Source: Oscillatoriales cyanobacterium | GTDB lineage: Bacteria > Cyanobacteriota > Cyanobacteriia > Cyanobacteriales > Microcoleaceae | Length of the DNA: 64,000 nt | Direction: 5' to 3' | Assembly (NCBI GenBank): GCA_004292955.1 | Contig: RDXX01000039.1 | Coordinates: 62,001 to 126,000, forward strand | Part shown: piece by piece, positions 9,446 to 57,905 of the stretch | Layout of the letters: each line of letters begins with the position of its first letter | Position numbering within the stretch: the first letter of the stretch is position 1 | Program-made: the position numbers and the translations under genes | The notes under the pieces: generated by a model | Database searches by the model: none | The model's input: the letters and a program-made list of their open reading frames with translations, nothing else | Told to the model about the DNA's origin: nothing

Positions 9446-9762
9446 AACTAAAAAAATAAAAACTTAATAAGAAAACAATTTCTTGCTTAAATTTATTGTA
9501 TCACAGGGTGTGAAGTTCAATTTCTAGGAAGAGCCCATATCCCTCAGCTTGCGCCATGCTATCAGCCAAATCTGCCTCAATGCGCTTACGTGCGATTCAC
9601 GCTCGGGATAGCTTCGCCGATCGCACATCCGAACTCACCAGCCTCAAACTGTACTATACTATAGAGCGTCGCGGTTGCGACCATCGCTCACGAGCATCCC
9701 GATCGCACTCCGATGCAGAGTAAATCTAAAATCTAAAATCGACTAATCTATTACTTACTATA

Positions 9763-10127
9763 GTCAGGAACTCAGGGCTGAAGCCACTGAGCTTGTAAGA
9801 AATTACAAGCTATTCTGACGGGCCTAAGTCTTAACTGACTACGTTATTTGAGTCACGACACCGGGCGAATGCGAAGCTAGTCCCTTGCTCTGTCATCTGC
9901 AATTAAACAGTTTTAAAGTCACTGAAACAGTGTTGCAGGTCTAAAAAGCTCTTATAACCTTGGCGAAGCTAACATTACCCGAAAGGGATTCGGAGACAAC
10001 CATATCTCCACAGAGGGGCAACCATACCCCTCTACCCCGCAAGGGGGATTCAAGGCGATTGAAATCGCCGGGTCGTTTTCCTCTCAGGTCTAAAGACTCG
10101 CTCGTTTCCCACTTACCGAGTGTTTTT
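9763..10127 (+). ncRNA. HEARO/IscB-omegaRNA-like structured RNA, standalone (copy A)
   Basis: Collinear conserved blocks shared with 41839-42278 (GCCACTGAGCTTGTAAG, CTACGTTATTTGAGTCA, TTAAACAGT-TTAAAGTCACT, AAGCTCTTATAAC, GATTCAAGGCGATTGAAATCGCC-GGTCGTTTTCCTCTCAGGTCT, GTTTCCCACTTACC-AGTGTTTTT), ending at ATGA. Confidence 0.75.
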
Positions 10128-10913
10128 ATGAAAATTGCCACCTGGAACGTCAACTCAATTCGCACCCGCCTCGAACACGTTACTAGCTGGTTGCAAACCA
10201 ACCAAATCGACGTTCTCTGCTTGCAAGAAACCAAAGTTACAGACAAAGACTTTCCCCTGCAACCCTTCCTCGACATCGGCTACAACTGCTACATCTCCGG
10301 TCAAAAATCCTACAACGGCGTCGCTATTTTTAGCCGATCGCCCCTGTCACAAGTCAGCGCCGGATTTGCCCCCATTCTCGGCGACGCAACCGTCGGCAGC
10401 TTCGACGAACAAAAGCGCCTCATAGCCGGGGTTATAGACGATATTTGCATCATTTCCGTATACGTTCCCAACGGTTCCGAGGTTGGTTCCGAGAAGTATC
10501 AATACAAACTGCATTGGCTCAAACTGCTGCAAGAATACCTGAAAATAGCACTAGACAAATCGCCCAACCTGTGCATTTGTGGCGACTTCAACATCGTACC
10601 GGACGATCGAGATATATACAATCCCAAAGCTGCTGCAAACTCCGTTGGCCTATCAATACCCGAACGCCAAGCATTAACAGAAATCACCGAATTAGGATTA
10701 AGCGACCCCTTTCGCAAATTCACCTCAGAAGGCGGACATTATAGCTGGTGGGACTATCGCGCCGCCGCATTTCCCCGCAACAACGGCTGGAGAATCGACC
10801 ACCATTATCTCAGCCCTCCCCTCTACGAAAAAGCCAAAAACTGTACAATAGATATTGCTCCCAGAAAATTAGTCAAACCCAGCGACCACACCCCCGTAAT
10901 TGTCGAAATTTGA
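10128..10913 (+). CDS. xth: exodeoxyribonuclease III (xth family)
   Basis: MKIATWNVNSIRTRLEHVTSWLQTNQIDVLCLQETKV...DHTPVIVEI; native start placed at 10128, not the 9960 ORF-track start that reads through the RNA element. Confidence 0.92.
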   Translation: MKIATWNVNSIRTRLEHVTSWLQTNQIDVLCLQETKVTDKDFPLQPFLDIGYNCYISGQKSYNGVAIFSRSPLSQVSAGFAPILGDATVGSFDEQKRLIAGVIDDICIISVYVPNGSEVGSEKYQYKLHWLKLLQEYLKIALDKSPNLCICGDFNIVPDDRDIYNPKAAANSVGLSIPERQALTEITELGLSDPFRKFTSEGGHYSWWDYRAAAFPRNNGWRIDHHYLSPPLYEKAKNCTIDIAPRKLVKPSDHTPVIVEI

Positions 10914-13234: not shown

Positions 13235-14389
13235 TAATTTAAGTTTAACTGAACTGGCGCGAGAGAGAATGATTGTCACTCAAACTCGATCGCGTAACAG
13301 CATTGTTAAACAGTTGACAGTTGACAGTTGACAGTTGACAGCGAAGTGATAAGAACGGAGATTTAAACTCCGCTCTTATCACAATCTGCCGACCTGAGTA
13401 AGGGCTTCAAACCCATGCTATTCGGTGACAATTTAACCTAGGGAAGCATTTGCTCCTCAGCAATTATACTTACAGCTTGCTCTAATTTTGGGTGAAAAAC
13501 TGAGATTTAGGCGATCGATATAGCTGCAAGCTTCCCTAACGTCCGGAGTGCCATATCGATCGCCCCTCGCCCCCAAATTGCGAATTTTACACTCCTAAAA
13601 AAACAGTTTTTTCGGTAATCTTACTGATTGACAAATGCAATGCCATTCTTGACTTTTCACCAATAGGTAACGGCGAGGAAAAACCTACGCTTTCTGTGCC
13701 AGCGGGAGTTCAAAAGACCCGGTTTTTGATGCCGATCATATTGGGTGAGGTTAAATGGGAAGCCCCAGCCAACACCAAAAAAGTTATAGATCGATCGCCA
13801 CATCCAACTCCCAACCTACGCCAAATACATCGATTAACCGGGTTTTTTCCTGGAATTCCTGGGTTGAAATGCCGAATTTTTGTCAGGAAACCCGGTTTTT
13901 CCCTTAACTGCCAACTCGATAAGGGAGACTCAAAAAACCATGAATCTCATATGGTGCAAGGGATTAAGCTTCCTGTGAGCTGTGGGGTATTTAATCAAGA
14001 ACCCCGAATTATATAAAGTTTTATTAAAAAAATCCCTATTTTGGCGAAGTGATCGGGAACGAGGTTATTGGTGATGAAGATTAACTTAACTTCTGACCTT
14101 GGTCACTTGTTTATAGCCAGTCTCTATCTATACTAGCTATATAAACAAAGAAGTACAACGCACTTTTCGGGGCTTCAAACTGTTACATCAGAAAGTTCTT
14201 AGCGTTTTCCCGAATCTTGGTAAAACAAGTGGGGCAGCCAAAGCTCGATCTCTCCAACAGCACAAAAGTCAGAAAAGTTAGTAAAGAAACAAACAGCGGT
14301 GATGCTTCGTCTTAACAAAGTGGGCATCATAATTATAAATAACCGCTAAGCGTAGCATCTTTTCACCCGGAGCCATTGAGAAAATCACT

Positions 14390-16108: not shown

Positions 16109-17467
16109 ATGCTAAAACCTCAAAAAGGATTTTCCATTGCCACTAAGTCAGTCAAGGCGAAATTGCTTCGTTCTGGTTTTGATATGCAGCCAACTAAGGC
16201 AGCCTATAACGAGATAGTTCATTTCTATTTCCTACTAATTGCCGAAGCTCCTCAAGGCATCCTGACCAAAGAAAATGGAGGCTGGCGTTACTACGAGCTA
16301 CTCACGGCTAATCATCCTTTCGTAAAAGGCTTTCCTTCTGGGATGAAGAGAGCAGCCATCAGGCAAGCAATTGGTGCTTAATAAAAGCTGGAATTCAACC
16401 TATCAAAAATGGTTGAATCGCCCAAAAAGGCTCAAGCACCACAAGCCACCGCTCCATCAAGGAGCGTTTAACTTTAACCCTCAGTACGATGCTGGGATGT
16501 GGAAAGAGGATGATGGTTTTTCTATTGTTCTAAAGATGCTGGTAGGCGATTCATGGAAGTGGATAAAACATCAGTATCAATGCCCTGACGTTCCGACCCA
16601 ATGGGTAAAAGGCTCCCCTAGAGTGCAGGTTCAAAACGGTTCTTTGTGGATAGTTTTTCCACTTGAAAAATACGTTCCTGCTACGGGTGGCATCAAAGGA
16701 ATCATGGCAAAAAGCACGTTTCGGACCTGCGGAATTGACATGGATCTCGACAAGTTCATCGTCATTGCTAGCATCCTAGAAACCAACGACAGAGGCGAAA
16801 CGACTGAAGTCGCTAGACATTTCATTAACCAGTCGCGTCATGTAGCTCGTAGGAAGCGGAATCTAGGAAATATCGCCATCAAAATGGGCAAAACGGGAAT
16901 CATTTCCCGTGGCTTTGCTAAAAAAGCATGGGACTCTTTATCTGCTGTGGAAATTGAATATTGGGCGTTGCTTAATCATGGTATGAAAAAAATAAGTTTA
17001 AAATCCAAAACCTTTGTGGATACTGGTTTCTATGACAGACCTATTTAGCCTTTCAGGCCAATCATTGGCGGGCAAATGTGATTAGCTTTGAGCATCTGGG
17101 AAATTTGCGACCCAAACGCGGGAAATATTCAAGACGCTCAAATCAAAAACGTGCTTACTGGTTGAAAGGCAAAATCTATGAACAAGTCAAACGAATTGCT
17201 TATCAAGATTATGCAATTCTCACAACTCGCGTTAGTCCGATGAATACGAGCCGTCTTACCCCTTGGGGCGAGCCTGTCTGGAGAGGATGCAAATTCCCTT
17301 CAAGCCCGACTGAGTTTGATAGCTATCGACCGGGGGCTGCATTAGTAGCAACTGTGGATGGGTACAAAGCTCATAGTGGTTTAAATGCCGCTCGTAATGT
17401 GGCTCTAAAAGCAATTAAGCGCCATCTTTCAGAGGTGATGCTTCATCAAAAAAGCCTACAGCAGTAA
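16109..17467 (+). pseudogene. degenerate TnpB-like/OrfB family (IS200/IS605-type RNA-guided nuclease relative), at least two frameshifts
   Basis: Three consecutive ORF fragments (16109-16381, 16371-17048, 17078-17467) read as one protein; RuvC-like GIDMDLDKFIVIASI, FEHLGNLRP and SGLNAARN; zinc-finger cysteines and last RuvC Asp absent. Confidence 0.72.
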
Positions 17468-41438: not shown

Positions 41439-41838
41439 GTATTGAAAATGCTCTTTCTCTTTTTCCCATTCTCCCCCTCTCTGAGTCGCCTCAAATTCTT
41501 CCGATCGCAATAGTTCTTTACGTTTTCCCCCCACAGGTGGGGTTTAATTTTTAACCGCTGCACTATAATTGACGTGCGATAACTAACTTAATATATAGCT
41601 ACACCCTGAGTGCAGAGGGTGCAGCTCTCGACTTAAATTCGCCAATAAGAACCACTTATTCGGTGTCGATCGCCTTTAAGCTAAGGCCCGAGTGACCTCA
41701 GGAAAATTAACCGGCCTGAATCTTAGGGTAGCTGCCAAGCTTTCCGGCGACTGTCGGCTATGCTTGATTCGGCGGTCTCGCAATATTTCTTTTATGGAGG
41801 ATGAAAAGATGCCTCCAAGTTTTACTATTTCGGAGATT

Positions 41839-43182
<1,344 letters not shown>

Positions 43183-43184
<2 letters not shown>

Positions 43185-54639: not shown

Positions 54640-55779
54640 TTAATCTGGGCGATCTATCTGAAAAATCCCAATTAGAGATTGACAAAGGGATTGAAAACTG
54701 AACGCTGCGAGGGTTTGTTCCCTCAACCAAGGCCGATCGCACTTTTTATCTTTTCCTTGAAGCATTTCCACACAAGCAACCGCTACTGCTGCCGGATCTC
54801 GGTGAGGAACTCGCCATCCCAGTTTACCATCTTGCAGCGGATCGGCAGATCCGTCCGCGTCCCCGGCGAGCACTGGTATTCCGCAAGCTAAAGCTTCCAA
54901 ATACACTATACCGAAGCCTTCCTGGGAGGGCATTACATAAGCATCGGCTAACTGATAATGTGCTGCTAAATCTGCTGTCGGTACAAAACCCGCAAATATA
55001 ACTCTTTCGGCAACTCCCAAATCGGTGGCGAGTTTTGCTAATCTAGGGCGATCGTCCCCGCGTCCAATAACCAAGTATTTCACATTGGGAAAACTTTTGG
55101 CAATTTCCGGCAAAGCTTGAATTGTGACATCGACGCCTTTGTAACTATCAGTCGATCGCAATCGGGCTACAGTCATCAATATTTTAGCACCAGTCAGATC
55201 GTACTTTTCTAATAAATGCAGCGGTTTGGGGCCGATAGTAAATATTTTTTCATCTACAGTACAAGGCACTATTTGGAATTTCTCGGGATTTAAGTTGTTG
55301 AGTTCGCAAGTGCGATCGCGCGTGTACCTGCTAATCGTCCAAATGCGATCGGCTTGTCTCATTGCTATTTGATATTTTAGCGGAAGTGTTTCCCAAACTT
55401 CCTTGCCGTAAGTTAAAATCGTGTAGGGAATTCCCAACGGCTGGCATAATGTTTGAATCAGCGGTGCAAGTTTGATGTGACCGCAGAAAACCCGTTGAGG
55501 TCGTTTTTGCACCAAGCAGGTTAGCAATTTGGTGGCAAACTTAAAACGGCCAAGCCAAGCGGGATCAGTTTTTAGGTAAGAGAATTTGAGATTTTTGGAC
55601 TCGAAGGGATTGTGACAATCTGGCCCATCTCGCAACAGCAAAATTTCTGCTTGTGGCGGAAGGTTGTTGGCTGCGGTTAGTGACAAATAAGCTTTCAGGA
55701 TGTCTTGAATGTAGGATTGAATCCCGCCTTCGCTGGAAAATATTTCTAGGAAACAGAATAGGTGATTTGTCGATCGCAT
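54640..55779 (-). CDS. glycosyltransferase family 4 (GT-B)
   Basis: YVMPSQEGFGIVYLEALACGIPVLAGDADGSADPLQDG. Confidence 0.9.
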   Translation of the reverse strand: MRSTNHLFCFLEIFSSEGGIQSYIQDILKAYLSLTAANNLPPQAEILLLRDGPDCHNPFESKNLKFSYLKTDPAWLGRFKFATKLLTCLVQKRPQRVFCGHIKLAPLIQTLCQPLGIPYTILTYGKEVWETLPLKYQIAMRQADRIWTISRYTRDRTCELNNLNPEKFQIVPCTVDEKIFTIGPKPLHLLEKYDLTGAKILMTVARLRSTDSYKGVDVTIQALPEIAKSFPNVKYLVIGRGDDRPRLAKLATDLGVAERVIFAGFVPTADLAAHYQLADAYVMPSQEGFGIVYLEALACGIPVLAGDADGSADPLQDGKLGWRVPHRDPAAVAVACVEMLQGKDKKCDRPWLREQTLAAFSFQSLCQSLIGIFQIDRPD

Positions 55780-55805
55780 TTTTATTTAGATTTGATAGAT
55801 AAGAA

Positions 55806-56010
55806 GACACGGCGGTTGAAACCGCGTCTATACAAGCGAAACCCGCCTCCGCGGGTTGAAGATAAAAGACACGGCGGTTGAAACCGCGCCTATACAAGCG
55901 AAACCCGCCTCCGCGGGTTGAAGATAAAAGACACAGCGATTGAAATTACGTTATTCTCTTTAGTCCGCGGAGGCGGACATCGTTTGTCTAGGCGCGGTTT
56001 CAACCGTACG
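55806..56010. repeat. 62-bp-period array of GGCGGTTGAAACCGC / CCCGCCTCCGCGGGTTGAAG hairpins
   Basis: Unit starts (gacac) at 55806, 55868, 55930; closes with inverted copy gtccgcggaggcggac...ggcgcggtttcaaccg. Confidence 0.88.
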
Positions 56011-56049
56011 TCCTATCTTAACTTTCATCTGGGCCCTAACTTTCATGTC

Positions 56050-56118
56050 GCCCAAAAAACAAAAAGCCCCTAAACATCGCTGGTTAGGGGAGAAAATTAT
56101 CAGGGTGCATCTACTAAT
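56050..56118 (-). ncRNA. candidate small RNA with own promoter and intrinsic terminator
   Basis: Minus strand TGACA-N16-TATACT promoter; no ORF; CCCCTAA-ccagcgatg-TTAGGGG hairpin + TTTTTGTTTTTT. Confidence 0.5.
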
Positions 56119-56386
56119 GTGGTTAGTATAGCATCCTTTTGTGGGGTGTCACCCATCATGGGTGACACCAACGCAGTTTTTTCGATGAGAATAAATTATA
56201 TTTGAGGTGCTAAATGATTGCCAAAGCTTGTATGTCCGATCGCATTGTCGCTGTTAACCTAAGATAGGACTGACGCAAAAATCCTCAGAAAGCCTGTAGA
56301 TTCGTAGATCTATGCTCGCGAAAGCCGATATTTTTCCAGAAATCGGGTTGGCGATCGGCAAGTCCTATATTATTTAAAATAAATCC

Positions 56387-57667
56387 GTGCTAGACCTCAA
56401 ATTAATCCGAGAAAATCCGCAAGCCGTACAAGAGGGCCTCAACACTCGCGGAGGCAATCACGAAATCGAGCCAATTCTGCAACTAGACAAACAGCAGCGG
56501 GAGTTGGAAGGTAAGCGATCGCAACTGCAAGCCCGCAGCAACGAAATAGCCAAACTCATCGGGCAAAAAAGAAAATCGGGTTTACCCCTCGAATCTCCCG
56601 AAATTCAGACTCTGCAAGCCGAAGGTAACGAAGTCGGCACGCAGTCGAACGAATTGCAAGCACAGGAAAAAGACTTAAAAGCTCAAATAGAAGCTCTATT
56701 GTTACCATTGCCGAACTTGCCCGGTAAGTCAACTCCGTTAGGCAAAAATGAAGATGAAAACATCGAAATCCGGCGCTGGGGAGACGAATACATTCCCCAA
56801 AATCCCGAGATTTTGCCCCACTGGGAAATCGGCGAAAAATTAGGAATTATCAACTTTGAACGGGCAGTAAAAATCGCTAGTCCCCGCTTTGTCACGTTAG
56901 TTGGCGCAGGTGCAGCCCTGGAAAGAGCGATTATTCAATTCATGCTCGATCGCCATACCAAAGCTGGTTATATAGAAGTAATTCCCCCACTTTTAGTTAA
57001 TACCGAATCCCTCACTGCTACAGGTCAATTGCCGAAATTTGCTGAAGAAAGTTTTAAGTGCGATCAAGACGATTTATGGTTAATTCCTACTTCTGAAGTT
57101 CCGGTGGTGAATTTGTACCGAGGTGAAATCTTGACAGCAGAACAGTTGCCAGTTTATCACTGTTCTTTCACTCCTTGTTTTCGCCGGGAAGCGGGAAGTT
57201 ACGGCAAAGATACGCGGGGATTGATTCGGTTGCACCAATTTAATAAGGTGGAATTGGTAAAACTGGTGCATCCGAGTACCTCTGAGGCTGAGCACGAAAA
57301 GCTCGTGCAGGATGCTGAGGGTGTTTTGCAGGCGCTGAAATTGCCTTATCGGGCGATCGAGCTTTGTACCGGCGACTTAGGTTTCGCGGCGGCAAAAACC
57401 TACGATTTAGAGGTGTGGCTGCCTTCTGCGGGCAAATACCGCGAGATTTCGAGTTGTTCCAATGTCGCAGATTTTCAGGCGCGGCGGGCAAATATTCGGT
57501 TTAAAGAAGCGGGGAAAAAAGGTACTCAATTCGTGCACGCGCTTAACGGTTCCGGTTTAGCTGTGGGGCGGACAATGGCGGCTATTTTGGAGAATTACCA
57601 GCAGCCGGATGGGACGGTAAAAGTGCCGGAAGTTCTCCAATCTTATCTCGGTCGCGAGGTTTTGTAA
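56387..57667 (+). CDS. serS: seryl-tRNA synthetase (GTG start)
   Basis: [22 protein letters not shown]...[27 protein letters not shown]. Confidence 0.96.
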
Positions 57668-57905
57668 ACTACGAAGACACGGCGGTTGAAACCGCGTCTA
57701 TACAGACAAAACCCGCCTCCGCGGGTTGAAGACAAAGGCGGTTGCGAGGTATTGTAAACTACGAAGACACGGCGGTTGAAACCGCGTCTATACAGACAAA
57801 ACCCGCCTCCGCGGGTTGAAGGCAAAGGCGGTTGAAATTAGGCGATCTTCTTGAGTCCGCGGAGGCGGACATTGTTTGTGTAGGCGCGGTTTCAACCGCC
57901 GACTC
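57650..57905. repeat. 90-bp tandem duplication of serS 3' end plus hairpin repeat array
   Basis: gcgaggttttgtaaactacgaagacacggcgg repeated as gcgaggtattgtaaactacgaagacacggcgg 90 bp later; terminal inverted copy. Confidence 0.88.

Follow-up and report, generated by a model that had tools for sequence, protein, structure and literature searches.

What lies directly upstream of an xth-like exonuclease III gene, and how it came to abut the start codon, is the question raised by this locus, since a similar leader also precedes the unrelated gene hetR in the same 64,000-nucleotide stretch of DNA (hereafter the window). The leader of xth is a discrete 365-bp element spanning positions 9763-10127, the last base of which abuts ATGAAAATTGCC at 10128. 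A first-pass annotation had drawn exactly these coordinates and had claimed homology to the hetR leader, and the two leaders indeed align at both ends. It had also described an independent structured RNA; the first 216 nt of the element are instead a full-length HEARO RNA, an IscB omega-RNA (Rfam RF02033; score 140.3 bits, gathering cut-off 83, model positions 1-211 of 211, E 4e-29). HEARO RNAs are now understood to be omega-RNAs of IscB nucleases (PMC9755519). The features of the two loci, all on the + strand, are as follows.

9747-9762, +, predicted guide, taken from the native xth leader (16 nt), TCTATTACTTACTATA; the identical 16 nt followed by ATGA stand at the empty sites of two relatives (G004 and G010)
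9763-9978, +, HEARO RNA, the IscB omega-RNA scaffold and left end of the element (RF02033, 140.3 bits)
9771-9791, +, left-end hairpin CTCAGGGCTGAAGCCACTGAG, first stem of the omega-RNA (DNA folds)
9979-10046, +, linker in place of the IscB gene, absent from the hetR copy (gap between BLAST matches)
10047-10127, +, right end of the element (identity to IscB-bearing elements L252, L243 and L248; 98% to the hetR copy over 45 nt)
10110-10122, +, terminal hairpin CACTTACCGAGTG and T-run within the right end
10128-10131, +, ATGA, predicted target-adjacent motif (TAM) and xth start codon (in all 57 family members ATGA or GTGA comes next)
10128-10913, +, xth-like exonuclease III gene, 261 aa, true start MKIATWNV (PF03372, E 4e-35)
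41823-41838, +, predicted guide of the hetR copy, TACTATTTCGGAGATT (empty sites match at 16 of 16 bases in L291 and 15 of 16 in L152)
41839-42065, +, HEARO omega-RNA of the hetR copy (RF02033, 100.2 bits, E 2e-19)
42198-42278, +, right end of the hetR copy (88% identity to 10047-10127)
42279-43184, +, hetR, with ATGA at the element border (PF03574 and PF18460)

Make-up and relatives of the element

Over its last 81 nt the xth element shares 86-90% identity with the right ends of three complete IscB elements from sister genomes (L252, L243 and L248), which match its left end as well. BLAST matches to these autonomous elements end at about nt 226 and restart at nt 285, and no IscB ORF was found within 9763-10127 or on either side of it; the locus was therefore filed as an ORF-less HEARO/IscB derivative. 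Since both of its ends match IscB elements, it corresponds to an IscB element minus the coding middle. The omega-RNA has kept the whole model length, with a score comparable to those of IscB-bearing copies. The xth element is a non-autonomous member of the IscB family that has retained the omega-RNA gene and lost the IscB gene.

Y1 transposases recognise similar hairpins near both ends of IS200/IS605 elements, and DNA folds gave clear, if imperfect, end hairpins for L252 and L248. In the xth copy the left hairpin is intact and the right one altered: CTCAGGGCTGAAGCCACTGAG recurs nearly unchanged in the right end of the autonomous L252 (a 24-nt match between left and right ends, 96%), and this clean, left-end-like hairpin has been lost from the xth right end, so that the copy may be immobile.

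The hetR copy spans 41839-42278 (440 bp, as against 365 bp at xth) and is followed by ATGAAAAATG at 42279. The two copies share 76% identity over the omega-RNA (nt 1-218) and 88% over the right end (nt 285-365), and their middles differ in both sequence and length. Rfam E values and BLAST matches exclude a chance likeness. The host genome (7.29 Mb in 163 contigs) contains 31 HEARO matches and 41 BLAST matches to the element; the description of the xth leader as a second copy thus holds for the window, which has two, but it is one of about 31 in the genome.

Ten RRXRR/IscB hits were found in the same genome, intact IscB genes among them. One of these, on C68, encodes 423 aa from an MSN start, with RRXRR and HNH domains, is catalytically intact in appearance and has clear relatives among the solved structures in the PDB, OgeuIscB and others. 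This protein shares 83% identity with the IscB of L252, the element whose right end is that of the window element; its own omega-RNA is only 72% identical to that of xth, and no IscB gene with exactly the xth-type right end was found in this genome. Intact IscB genes such as that on C68 could serve ORF-less copies in trans. The genome also encodes HNH-lacking, IsrB-like proteins of 344 and 351 aa, and it gave 13 hits to Y1 transposases, none of them next to any omega-RNA copy examined. Two elements with IsrB-like proteins of this kind (L111 and L112; G000:C112 and C116) end at TTTTTCTG directly before ATGA, at gene starts.

Several other features of the window were recorded in passing. At 16371-17467 (+), two adjacent ORFs resemble the halves of a frameshifted TnpB-type gene, an impression gained from the translations only. 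Arrays of a seven-base repeat (GTTGACA and variants) occur at 13305, 20809, 21597, 23479, 23822, 43180, 54508 and 59148; short tandem repeats of this kind are typical of filamentous cyanobacteria. At 55779-57901, GCGGTTGAAACCGC and CGCCTCCGCGG form the basis of diverged repeats, both direct and inverted, which possibly belong to another small palindromic element family. About 13 kb from hetR, at 56059-56116 (-), lies an Rfam match to NsiR1 (RF02399, 49.7 bits), a HetR-dependent small RNA.

Empty sites, predicted guide and target motif

In the same-genus relatives G010 and G004, the empty xth site reads TCTATTACTTACTATA followed immediately by ATGAAAATCGCC, so that the window flanks are joined exactly; relative to these sites the insertion is precise, with no base duplicated or lost. 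In two further relatives, G017 and G001, the xth ATG is preceded by one or three additional bases. Every other genus member for which sequence upstream of xth was seen lacks the insertion. These empty sites, together with the unlike neighbour genes, bear out the earlier proposal of a mobile module unrelated to the gene downstream. A leader or riboswitch specific to xth or hetR was rejected, since the neighbours are unrelated and no other genus member in which the upstream region was seen has the element.

Since the RNA is an IscB omega-RNA, the most fitting reading takes ATGA for the TAM and the upstream 16 nt for a guide. Known IscB enzymes have their guide, about 16-17 nt long, at the omega-RNA 5′ end and use a TAM located 3′ of the target; for OgeuIscB the TAM is NNRR (PMC9640706), a motif that both ATGA and GTGA satisfy. 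Once the xth flanks are rejoined, the 16 nt and ATGA form a perfect target (16 of 16). The guide occurs once in its own genome. There the element comes next, presenting GTCAG and no TAM, which would leave the filled site safe from cutting; no unoccupied target exists in that genome, and elsewhere the guide was found only at xth, in four relatives. Because the element sits at the start of xth, its RNA would carry the address of that gene.

An ORF beginning at a TTG (9960-10913) runs through the element into xth. Relatives without the element have the conserved MKIATWNV start directly after unrelated leader DNA, and the N-terminal extension is thus an artefact of the insertion; the first-pass annotation had already called it an artefact. 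A conserved small protein within the element was rejected as well, since the in-frame TTG ORF arises from the insertion.

The hetR junction is less tidy. At the empty sites of its relatives (L291 and L152) the guide is followed by TTGATGA or GTGATGA, and the hetR copy is without the three bases (GTG or TTG) that these have ahead of ATGA; it is therefore no simple precise insertion. From the sequences compared, either this copy used GTGA and lost three bases, or it would have had a different history.

We consider it likely that the xth element is, as a whole, a non-autonomous IscB/HEARO transposon that is moved and homes in trans. What is observed is an intact omega-RNA left end with an IscB right end, placed precisely between the xth leader and ATGA; we infer guide expression, cleavage and a mobilising transposase.

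Borders of related elements

Right ends were located by a 12-nt core, blind to the bases that follow, and insertions shared by descent were merged. Among the 57 de-duplicated elements with an xth-type right end in the genus, ATGA or GTGA came next in every case, as the first-pass annotation had expected of further copies. In-sense start codons stand at 38 of these borders (36 by the ORF criterion, plus fusA and hetR), and about a third of the copies are not at genes. The suggestion of site-specific insertion at start codons was partly borne out: insertion is precise before ATGA or GTGA, which are often start codons, but start codons account for only 38 of 57 borders and the hetR junction is not simple. 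The observed share of 67% compares with about 9-15% expected. With the 64-kb window as background and the same ORF criterion, 57 of 641 ATGA/GTGA sites are starts (8.9%; binomial p ∼5e-24); with start-like and intergenic sites alone the background rises to 15% (p ∼9e-19). The genes at the borders, recognised by their N-termini, presumably include argG, fusA, hetR, xth, mnmA, hoxH, glmM, lysS, gatB, rplR, ndhF, tig and grpE.

When the flanks of 16 own-genome copies were joined and searched for in the genus, uninterrupted sites were found in relatives for nearly all. Seven further sites were read (argG, fusA, L067, L070, L005, L080 and L089), and at each the best relative has 15-16 of the 16 guide bases, then ATGA. 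A second right-end family (GGACGGGGTTTC...TTTTTCTG) has start codons at 18 of 22 borders. The start of grpE carries the first right-end family in one genome (L223 in G007) and the second in another (L259 in G011), so that this start codon seems to have been hit on two occasions; another gene is likewise occupied by both families in different genomes (L265 and L197), and the two cases suggest repeated hits on the same sites. An IscB element upstream of gyrA (L114) was rejected as a start-codon insertion and left out of the count, because it belongs to another family, whose apparent terminus, TCTAG, lies some 20 nt upstream.

Of the 45 borders detected in other genera of the order, a few of which are probably false, 24 coincide with start codons, and some right ends there place a perfect Shine-Dalgarno sequence ahead of the ATG (AAGGAGGAAGAAAG directly followed by ATGA). 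Strong Shine-Dalgarno sequences terminate the right ends of L353, L354, L352 and L357 (G050) and of L377 (G019), directly before the host start codon. From their sequence, it is as if such elements substituted for the displaced ribosome-binding site. The xth family has a hairpin and T-run in that position and no Shine-Dalgarno sequence.

The start-codon bias may reflect selection alone. The best of the alternatives is that the element is an inert, MITE-like remnant, idle since a single move by a Y1 transposase, with ATGA serving only as transposase target and the bias arising from the loss of harmful insertions. The degraded right-end hairpin, an assembly without a cognate IscB bearing the xth-type right end and the several ATGA sites away from genes are all compatible with such a remnant. 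However, its omega-RNA is of full model length and scores like those of IscB-bearing copies, the empty site agrees exactly with guide and TAM, and purging of coding sites alone would leave about 15% at start codons; simple loss of intragenic insertions thus falls short of the observed fraction. We regard an idle remnant as rather unlikely, although it fares better than a domesticated cis-regulatory leader, in which the RNA would control translation of xth, hetR and other genes, either in the manner of a riboswitch or as the target of an IscB regulator. In-sense placement directly at the start codons of many core genes and the Shine-Dalgarno-like sequences in some right ends would suit a leader of this kind, but the genes downstream have no functional relation to one another, roughly a third of the copies lie away from genes, and the xth insertion is missing from other genus members with the upstream region seen, the other insertions also being patchy among relatives; a regulatory role of this sort seems improbable.

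Proposed working and known systems

If the element is, as we favour, a transposon moved and homing in trans, a Y1 (HUH) transposase supplied from elsewhere would mobilise it through the imperfect end hairpins, its target being ATGA, or TCAT on the opposite strand. With the guide outside the element, transcription of it has to begin in host DNA; the in-sense start-codon position would provide the promoter, and a transcript from the host gene would read the upstream 16 nt into the omega-RNA, giving a guide to the element's own insertion site. IscB made elsewhere, for example from the intact C68 gene, would bind this RNA and cut chromosome copies or sister genomes with the empty site (guide plus ATGA), and repair from the filled copy would bring the element back. 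Sense placement at core-gene start codons would secure a promoter for the guide and spare the protein, and deletions running from the element into a core gene would be costly, which would account for the start-codon bias. It is very improbable that omega-RNA and IscB act rather as a repressor, binding the start of xth on incoming DNA or on further copies of the chromosome and silencing it, like TldR proteins (which derive from TnpB): the guide does address the xth leader and start codon and IsrB-like proteins lacking HNH are encoded, but the C68 IscB looks catalytically intact and its genome has no unoccupied target.

Filamentous cyanobacteria are generally polyploid, and if the present cells are too, the retention and homing expected of the trans-acting transposon would be relevant. 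Retention and homing are established for TnpB of the IS200/IS605 elements (the peel, paste and copy mode), with a plasmid gene drive as precedent (PMC11870625). The xth element shares with these the lack of target duplication and the short fixed target motif, and its predicted guide would likewise derive from the flank; of the subterminal hairpins typical of these elements it has the left one intact and the right one altered. The TnpB guide, however, is at the 3′ end, whereas the guide here lies 5′ of the element and would be transcribed from host DNA. IscB is the ancestor of Cas9. Compared with other HEARO/IscB (OMEGA) systems, the full model match, the predicted guide 5′ of the scaffold, the target motif at the far side and IscB relatives in the genome are the same; the IscB gene is absent here, and the RNA alone forms the leader of a housekeeping gene. 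Altae-Tran in 2021 reportedly described standalone omega-RNA loci in Ktedonobacter racemifer, thought to act in trans; omega-RNA apart from iscB and supposed trans action are common to both, whereas here empty sites prove precise insertion and there is a bias to core-gene start codons. HEARO elements were reportedly recognised by Weinberg in 2009 as mobile and located before ATGA or GTGA, so that insertion there is already known; less expected are the start-codon bias and, in some related families, the Shine-Dalgarno right ends. A search of one literature collection for IscB together with start codon returned no report.

What appeared to be an unknown leader RNA can now be read as a guide RNA with a recorded target and a natural empty-site control, and genes beside such elements receive false N-terminal extensions in annotation. 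The systematic placement on core-gene start codons deserves follow-up. More tentatively, and with rather less than even confidence, the IscB-family elements here might be viewed as start-codon parasites, in which the TAM would be the start codon, the guide the host leader, the promoter the host's and the right end a surrogate ribosome-binding leader, with core genes as safe, self-addressed homes for drive into empty chromosome copies of a polyploid cell. If this strategy is real, IscB elements, whose guide lies outside the element, would thereby obtain a promoter, and their harmless residence on essential genes would be accounted for.
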